Shown here: piece by piece, positions 30,165 to 60,140 of the stretch
Numbering within the stretch: position 1 is the first letter of the stretch
Layout: every line of letters starts with the position of its first letter
Source of the DNA: Keratinibaculum paraultunense
GTDB taxonomy: Bacteria; Bacillota; Clostridia; Tissierellales; Tepidimicrobiaceae
Direction: 5' to 3'
Assembly: GCF_016767175.1 (NCBI RefSeq)
Contig: NZ_CP068564.1
Span: 620,001-684,000 of the forward strand
DNA: 64,000 nt
The notes under the pieces: generated by a model
Databases searched by the model: none
Told to the model about the DNA's origin: nothing
The model's input: only the letters and a program-made list of their open reading frames with translations
Program-made: the position numbers and the translations under genes

Positions 30165-30452
30165 TAATTAAAATATTGAGTTTAAATTCTATGTTAGGGA
30201 GTAGTAGTTAAGGTCGATTATCTACAGAGAGCTGGTGTAGGTGAGAACCTAGCGATATAGATTTTAATGAATGGACCCTATAGAAGCAGTGGGAAAATCT
30301 AAAGATGAGTATCACTAGCCGGAAGCCAACCGTTATCTATGGACAGGACATGTTAGTGTCCCATTAAGAGTGATGCTTTTATGCATAATTTAGGTGGTAC
30401 CGTGGATTAATAACCTTCACCCTAATTTTTTAGGGTGGAGGTTTTTTTATTA
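30165..30452 (+). ncRNA. T-box leader, tryptophan-type, upstream of trpB
   Basis: Landmarks in order: AG-bulge sequence AGAGAG and distal loop GGTG near 30217-30232; specifier region TGAATGGACC with UGG at 30272-30274; a stem II-like block AGCCGGAAGCCAACCGTTAT; the T-box core AGGTGGTACCGTGGA at 30392-30406; and a terminator stem, AACCTTCACCC paired with GGGTGGAGGTT, followed by TTTTTTT. Uncharged tRNA-Trp should stabilise the antiterminator and switch on trpB. Reading one base later would give GGA (Gly), but UGG is followed by the expected purine and matches the downstream gene. Confidence 0.92.
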
Positions 30453-58949: not shown

Positions 58950-59039
58950 TTATAAGCTATTTCAGTTTTGATTATTATAGTGTATAATATAAAATAATAA
59001 GTAAATATTAAACTATAATCAAGATTAGTAGATATAATA

Positions 59040-59121
59040 TAGGTCTTAAGAGAGTCAGGGATAGTGGGTGCTGAGTGGTACCACAGAAGAACCCCTTTCG
59101 TCTCTGATAGAGATGAAAGGG
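59040..59121 (+). ncRNA. Reduced T-box-like leader of trpS lacking a specifier domain
   Basis: The leader holds AGAGAGTCAGGGATAGTGGG followed by TGCTGA, which looks like the AG-bulge and top of stem I closed by TCAG/CTGA. It runs directly into the T-box core GAGTGGTACCACAGA (59073-59087). A stem of 13 bp follows (CCCTTTCGTCTCT with its complement, 59093-59121) but without the T-run of a terminator. There is no room for a specifier loop or stems II and III. It may be a deletion derivative of a Trp T-box, or a minimal form. Confidence 0.6.
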
Positions 59122-59147
59122 ATTGCTTATTTGGAGGAGGTATAGAT

Positions 59148-60140
59148 ATGGAGAAAAAAATAGTATTTAGTGGAGTTCAGCCCTCAGGGGGACTTACTAT
59201 TGGAAATTATATAGGAGCTATTAAGAACTGGATAGATTTACAGGATAAATATGATTGTTATTATTCTATAGTTGATTTACATGCCATTACAGTTCCTCAA
59301 GTGCCAAAGGATTTGAGGAAAAATACATTAGATTTATTGGCTATTTACTCGGCATGTGGATTAGATCCAGAAAAATCCACTATATTTATTCAGTCTCATG
59401 TACCAGCTCATGCTGAGCTTACTTGGGTTCTTAATACTATAACATATATGGGACAGTTAAGTAGAATGACTCAATTTAAAGAAAAATCTAGAAAATCAAA
59501 GGAAAATCTAAATGCAGGGTTATTTACCTATCCAGTACTAATGGCAGCAGATATATTATTGTATCAAACGGAACTTGTACCTGTTGGAGAAGATCAAAAA
59601 CAACATTTAGAATTAGCTAGAGATTTAGCAGAAAGATTTAACAATAGATATAGTCCTACATTTAAAGTACCAGAACCTTTGATAAAAGAAGAAGGAGCAA
59701 GAATAATGAGCCTTCAAGATCCAGAAAGCAAAATGTCCAAATCCGATGAAAATGAAAATGGATATATATTGATATTAGATGAACCAGATGCTATAAGAAG
59801 AAAAATAAAAAGAGCAGTAACTGATTCTATAGGAGAAATAAAGTATAATGATGAACAATTAGGTATTAAGAATTTGATAAATATTTATAGTGCATTTTCA
59901 GGAGATTCAATAGAAGAAATAGAGAATAGGTATAAAGGTGTTGGGTATGGTAAATTTAAAGAGGATTTAGCAGAAGTAGTTATAGAAGGATTGATGCCAA
60001 TTCAAAAAAAATATAAAGAAATTATAAATAATAAGGATTACTTAGAAAAGGTATATAGAGAAGGTGCAGAGAAAGCTAATTATATAGCCAATAAAACTTT
60101 GAGAAAGGTATATAAAAAAGTGGGATTTATTCAAAGATAA
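59148..60140 (+). CDS. trpS: Tryptophanyl-tRNA synthetase
   Basis: 330 residues from the ATG at 59148, behind GGAGGAGG; an upstream in-frame ATG would translate the T-box-like leader and is rejected. Class I motifs are the HIGH-like PSGGLTIGNYIGAI and KMSKSDEN. It charges tRNA-Trp. It is monocistronic behind the shortened T-box-like leader. Confidence 0.95.
   Translation: MEKKIVFSGVQPSGGLTIGNYIGAIKNWIDLQDKYDCYYSIVDLHAITVPQVPKDLRKNTLDLLAIYSACGLDPEKSTIFIQSHVPAHAELTWVLNTITYMGQLSRMTQFKEKSRKSKENLNAGLFTYPVLMAADILLYQTELVPVGEDQKQHLELARDLAERFNNRYSPTFKVPEPLIKEEGARIMSLQDPESKMSKSDENENGYILILDEPDAIRRKIKRAVTDSIGEIKYNDEQLGIKNLINIYSAFSGDSIEEIENRYKGVGYGKFKEDLAEVVIEGLMPIQKKYKEIINNKDYLEKVYREGAEKANYIANKTLRKVYKKVGFIQR

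Follow-up and report, generated by a model that had tools for sequence, protein, structure and literature searches.

The trpS leader of Keratinibaculum paraultunense is very probably a relic T-box that lost its specifier by internal deletion

Class II (translational) T-boxes with a shortened stem I keep the specifier. In Actinobacteria, the translational T-boxes of ileS have a short or ultrashort stem I, and class II T-boxes bind tRNA with the shortened stem I together with stem II and sequester the Shine-Dalgarno sequence, according to PMC7583486. Here we describe the leader of trpS in a stretch of 64,000 nucleotides (nt) from Keratinibaculum paraultunense (contig NZ_CP068564.1, positions 620,001 to 684,000 of the forward strand), hereafter called the window, whose own numbering is used below. 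This leader shares its place, promoter, stem I 5′ strand, core and terminator stem with class I (transcriptional) T-boxes of the tryptophan type (Rfam RF00230), but lacks the 3′ strand of stem I, the specifier, stem II, the IIA/B element and stem III, and its antiterminator is damaged. Like class II T-boxes, it is without parts of the long stem I; unlike them, it has neither a short stem I with a specifier, nor a stem II, nor a sequestered Shine-Dalgarno sequence. On several of the features tested, the leader departs from a working riboswitch of the T-box family. We found no description of a natural T-box with a partly deleted stem I and a retained core in the literature searched, which included the accessible parts of PMC2494555, PMC9413887 and PMC3766115 and left most subscription journals outside.

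The source genome (G000 in all comparisons) is a single contig listed as 100% complete, and is the one genome of the species in our sample. TrpS was searched in 61 genomes, with matches in 59 and none in G004 and G056. Excluding G026, in which the contig start cuts the gene, the divergent TrpS-like matches of G052 and the second of G035, and a fragment in G054, we compared 58 trpS leaders: 19 come from the family, counting the one of the window, and 39 from elsewhere in the order. A full T-box above the RF00230 gathering score of 93 bits was found in 42 of these leaders (17 from the family and 25 from the order). An earlier note on this DNA had proposed collecting the trpS leaders of relatives; 17 of the 18 family relatives, including G001 of the same genus and the nearest by TrpS identity (G011, G017 and G012), carry a full T-box that aligns with the window core. 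No match at the gathering score was obtained in the remaining 16 leaders, 14 from the order and two from the family, namely those of the window (L016) and of G014 (L038). For the window this holds both for the leader itself and for its place in the whole stretch. When a match to RF00230 was forced on the window leader, it reached 19.4 bits, its first half tracking the 5′ strand of stem I and the rest entering the codons of trpS, so that the Rfam search suggested in the note returned part of stem I but no full T-box.

In the family alignment, agreement between the window and the intact leaders runs from the promoter as far as the distal loop of stem I, breaks off in a gap that extends to the T-box core, and resumes there. 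Along 58 columns of the stem I 5′ strand the window is 90% identical to G001, and along 49 columns of core and terminator 86%. The window has a distance of 165 nt between the −10 element and the start codon, compared to 271 in G001 and 267–275 in 8 of the 18 relatives, a comparison that leaves out nine leaders with longer spacers after the terminator as well as G014. Gone within about 105 nt are the 3′ strand of stem I with the UGG specifier, stem II, IIA/B and stem III, regions that we name after the general T-box architecture and the Rfam structure line. AATGG stands at the specifier place in all 17 intact family leaders and is absent from the window and G014; no alternative specifier was seen in what remains of the window leader. 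Judged by this alignment, what stands before trpS in the window is a tryptophan T-box shortened by one internal deletion of some 105 nt, and its descent from a T-box is clear. The deletion junction was placed at 59070..59074 (+ strand, like all features of the leader) from the alignment and the −10-to-start distance, and is uncertain by a few bases.

Upstream of the junction, the 19-leader alignment identifies a remnant of the stem I 5′ strand up to the distal loop (59010..59070), with the AGAGAG bulge and the loop GATAGTGGGTG. The earlier note had described the top of stem I fused directly to a T-box core, without specifier, and had named an overlooked upstream stem I as what would speak against it. 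The specifier is indeed gone, but stem I is more than its top: its 5′ strand is retained from 59010 onwards, while the 3′ strand with the specifier is absent. The motifs listed in the note are all present (AGAGAG at 59049-59054, TCAG/CTGA at 59055-59058 and 59071-59074, GTGGTACC at 59075-59082, and a 13-bp stem at 59093-59121). The promoter predicted from the alignment (58961..58988) consists of a weak −35 (TTCAGT at 58961-58966, or TTTCAG one base earlier) and a −10 TATAAT at 58983-58988 that is common to all 18 relatives. By eye, it aligns with TTTAC(A/T)-N16-TATAAT in 15 of them and with TTGACT as −35 in the other three; both appear better −35 elements than the TTCAGT of the window. With this promoter, transcription would start near 58995 and the leader would measure about 150 nt instead of the 80 first proposed. 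A short transcript from the TATAAT at 59033 was considered and rejected, since this site is stem I sequence and is occupied by ATATAATA in 8 of the 17 full-length relatives.

The T-box core GAGTGGTACCACAGA lies at 59073..59087. To score it independently, we used a covariance model (R1) made from the 15 antiterminators of G000 and six trpS antiterminators of relatives, with the window trpS sequence kept out. R1 matches 59071-59107 at a score of 34 bits, with E-values of 2.9e-8 when the window is searched and 1.1e-6 for the whole genome, which shows that the core is not a chance match. No core was found by R1 in the 14 order leaders without a T-box, nor in that of G014. In the 21 other antiterminators, the helices covary strongly (97.6% of cells paired, with 0 of 500 shuffles as high). 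Measured against these, the window antiterminator is damaged: helix A2 has A for G, giving an A-C pair where all 21 others have G-C, and the end pair of helix A1 is U-U. The antiterminator segment up to CUCU folds canonically as its minimum free energy (MFE) structure, with a 7-nt bulge, in all 17 intact family leaders (−6.0 to −10.4 kcal/mol), whereas in the window the MFE structure is another fold at −2.9 kcal/mol and the canonical one reaches −1.6. The 15 other T-boxes of G000, taken as a control, range from −4.1 to −11.2 kcal/mol, 12 of them with a canonical MFE, and the window trpS segment is the weakest of the 16.

The terminator stem-loop (59093..59121) is intact, with 13 bp, a 3-nt loop and 0 of 18 invariant columns changed, and core and terminator together fold at −20.8 kcal/mol. 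It is followed by a weak T tract, ATTGCTTATT, the poorest of the 19 family leaders, with 4 T in the first 8 nt versus 5–7 in the 18 others. A strong stem without a T-run had been noted; the run is poor as described, but a terminator scan still calls the stem terminator-like. The Shine-Dalgarno sequence GGAGGAGG (59133..59140) begins 11 nt after the stem, not about 16 as previously counted. It is unpaired in both the MFE and the centroid structure of the whole leader (58996-59165), while folding of a shorter RNA (59045-59150) leaves three Shine-Dalgarno bases weakly paired to the 5′ end. Downstream lies the sole TrpS match of G000 (59148..60140), of 330 amino acids, which presumably is trpS, encoding tryptophanyl-tRNA synthetase, a name given by orthology.

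We consider it very probable that the trpS leader is a relic T-box, produced by internal deletion, which no longer responds to tRNA-Trp and lets trpS be expressed at a fixed level through a leaky terminator. A single deletion of some 105 nt, which begins in the distal loop of stem I and ends shortly before the core, took out the UGG specifier, stem II, IIA/B and stem III, and point changes weaken the antiterminator further. The remaining RNA would be unable to read the tRNA anticodon, and no stabilisation by the 3′ end of uncharged tRNA is expected; the terminator hairpin should therefore form whatever the state of tRNA-Trp. Readthrough of a terminator with a poor U-tract would then set a constant, partial expression of trpS, and the terminator perhaps persists as a fixed, leaky attenuator. 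The 'dead deletion form' put forward in the earlier note is well supported by the 17 full-length orthologous leaders and the damaged antiterminator.

Several observations weigh against this reading. The tRNA-pairing bulge UGGUACC is intact in the window core, and little decay is seen in the parts that remain: of the columns that never vary across the 17 intact family leaders, our measure of decay, the stem I remnant has changes at 1 of 27 and core plus terminator at 2 of 35, compared to 0–1 in single intact leaders set against the others. So few changes make it probable that the deletion is recent; taken with the intact bulge, they could also mean that something still holds the core. Two of the 21 other antiterminators likewise lack the A1 end pair. 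Three of the 15 presumably working T-boxes of G000 (those of leuS, trpB and tyrS) have no canonical MFE structure either, so that the MFE alone does not prove damage. The poor T-run was not taken to prove that the terminator is dead, since the argS T-box of G000 (L004, G000:C1:719457-719668) has, by eye, hardly any T-run after its terminator stem (ATATTTAATA), a tract about as poor. We also dropped UGGU as an argument against a tryptophan origin, since many relatives with a UGG specifier have UGGU too and wobble pairing is reported in PMC7778990 for 46% of Trp T-boxes.

The other family leader without a full T-box, that of G014, provides a second case. It has an internal deletion of similar extent at a different junction, and like the window it keeps the terminator stem and has no AATGG, but its decay is far stronger, with 12 of 27 columns changed in the stem I remnant and 11 of 35 in core and terminator. 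Sorted by function, the sensor side has 21 of 43 columns changed and the terminator 2 of 18 (Fisher p = 0.008); G014 is a metagenome-assembled genome (MAG) with 82% completeness. The congeners of G014 (G002 and G018) have intact leaders, as G001 does for the window, and the two deletions therefore look independent.

RF00230 gives 15 other whole-length matches in G000, 12 above the gathering score and three at 86–90 bits, mostly preceding aminoacyl-tRNA synthetase genes (named by eye from their translations). R1 finds 16 cores, the 15 of these matches and the one of trpS; besides the latter, no core outside a whole-length T-box was found among the 150 of 380 first-look candidates that were scored. 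G000 is the only one of 20 family genomes in which R1 cores outnumber RF00230 matches, and the match numbers give no sign of a family-wide core-only class, in a comparison of numbers only, with differing cut-offs and candidates partly scored. The three other T-boxes of the window, said in the note to span 250–290 nt, measure 217–246 nt in Rfam, although the larger figure may hold if the 3′ arm of the terminator, beyond the end of the Rfam model, is included. One of them (30182-30427, 114.6 bits) shows TGG in the specifier position and lies upstream of trpB (650488-651627 in the genome), a gene above the TIGR00263 cut-off in 7 of the 20 family genomes. A genome-wide loss of tryptophan sensing was rejected because of this UGG T-box: the tRNA-Trp type of T-box was kept for trpB and not for trpS.

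A bare core could still act as a minimal T-box, capturing the 3′ end of uncharged tRNA without reading a codon and switching the terminator, in which case trpS would respond to general tRNA discharge. The core is recognisable at 34 bits with its UGGUACC bulge intact, few changes have accumulated, and the U of UGGN would fit a G discriminator by wobble, as PMC7778990 reports for Trp T-boxes. However, stem III is missing, helix A2 is broken at a pair that is otherwise invariant, and the terminator fold exceeds the canonical antiterminator in stability by about 19 kcal/mol, compared to 8–17 in the 17 intact relatives. In G000 the 15 other cores all belong to whole-length T-boxes, within the candidates scored, and by numbers R1 cores never exceed RF00230 matches in the 19 other family genomes. 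We therefore give this explanation, already raised in the earlier note as a minimal tRNA 3′-end sensor, very little credence. A translational switch, in which the retained stem or an alternative fold governs access of ribosomes to trpS, appears just as improbable. The short distance between the stem and GGAGGAGG, the poor T-run and the weak pairing of three Shine-Dalgarno bases in the shorter RNA would be in its favour, but the Shine-Dalgarno sequence is free in the whole-leader fold and the intact family leaders are of transcriptional design, with 5–7 T in the first 8 nt after the stem; this suggestion of the note thus finds no support.

An error of assembly or sequencing, with a full T-box in the organism itself, is likewise hardly to be expected. 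The fact that only one genome of the species was examined weighs on its side and against a relic, but the genome is one contig listed as complete, and further point differences in core and loop accompany the junction, which a simple misassembly would not make. It is possible, though we hold it only tentatively and think it rather unlikely, that selection kept the terminator after the loss of the sensor in order to set a low constitutive level of trpS. This overlaps with the relic T-box that we favour and adds to it only the claim of selection. The perfect terminator stem of the window is consistent with it, as is the G014 leader, whose terminator was kept while its sensor side decayed; this is, however, a single strongly decayed case from an incomplete MAG, and the T tract of the window is the poorest in the family.

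Some of the other trpS leaders show different arrangements. Between the tandem trpS copies of G048, L143 is a T-box of 94.9 bits, just over the gathering score, with the core GTGGCATTAGCG and an R1 score of only 18 bits, which may be a decaying T-box upstream of a trpS duplicate. The leaders L148 and L150 (from one family), L145, L146 and L045 have no T-box but a hairpin shortly before the gene. By eye, a T-run follows this hairpin in L148, L150 and L045; among the three scanned, a terminator was called there in L150 and none in L148 and L145.

The trpS leader of K. paraultunense presents a clear natural case of riboswitch loss, in which a single internal deletion took out the sensor and left promoter, core and terminator in place. 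Of the 19 family trpS leaders, two carry such a deletion, at very different stages of decay, and each has intact congeners. Seeing a T-box core does not show that a T-box works or is a minimal one. If selection keeps the terminator, the loss of a riboswitch would leave behind a fixed attenuator and not a plain promoter.
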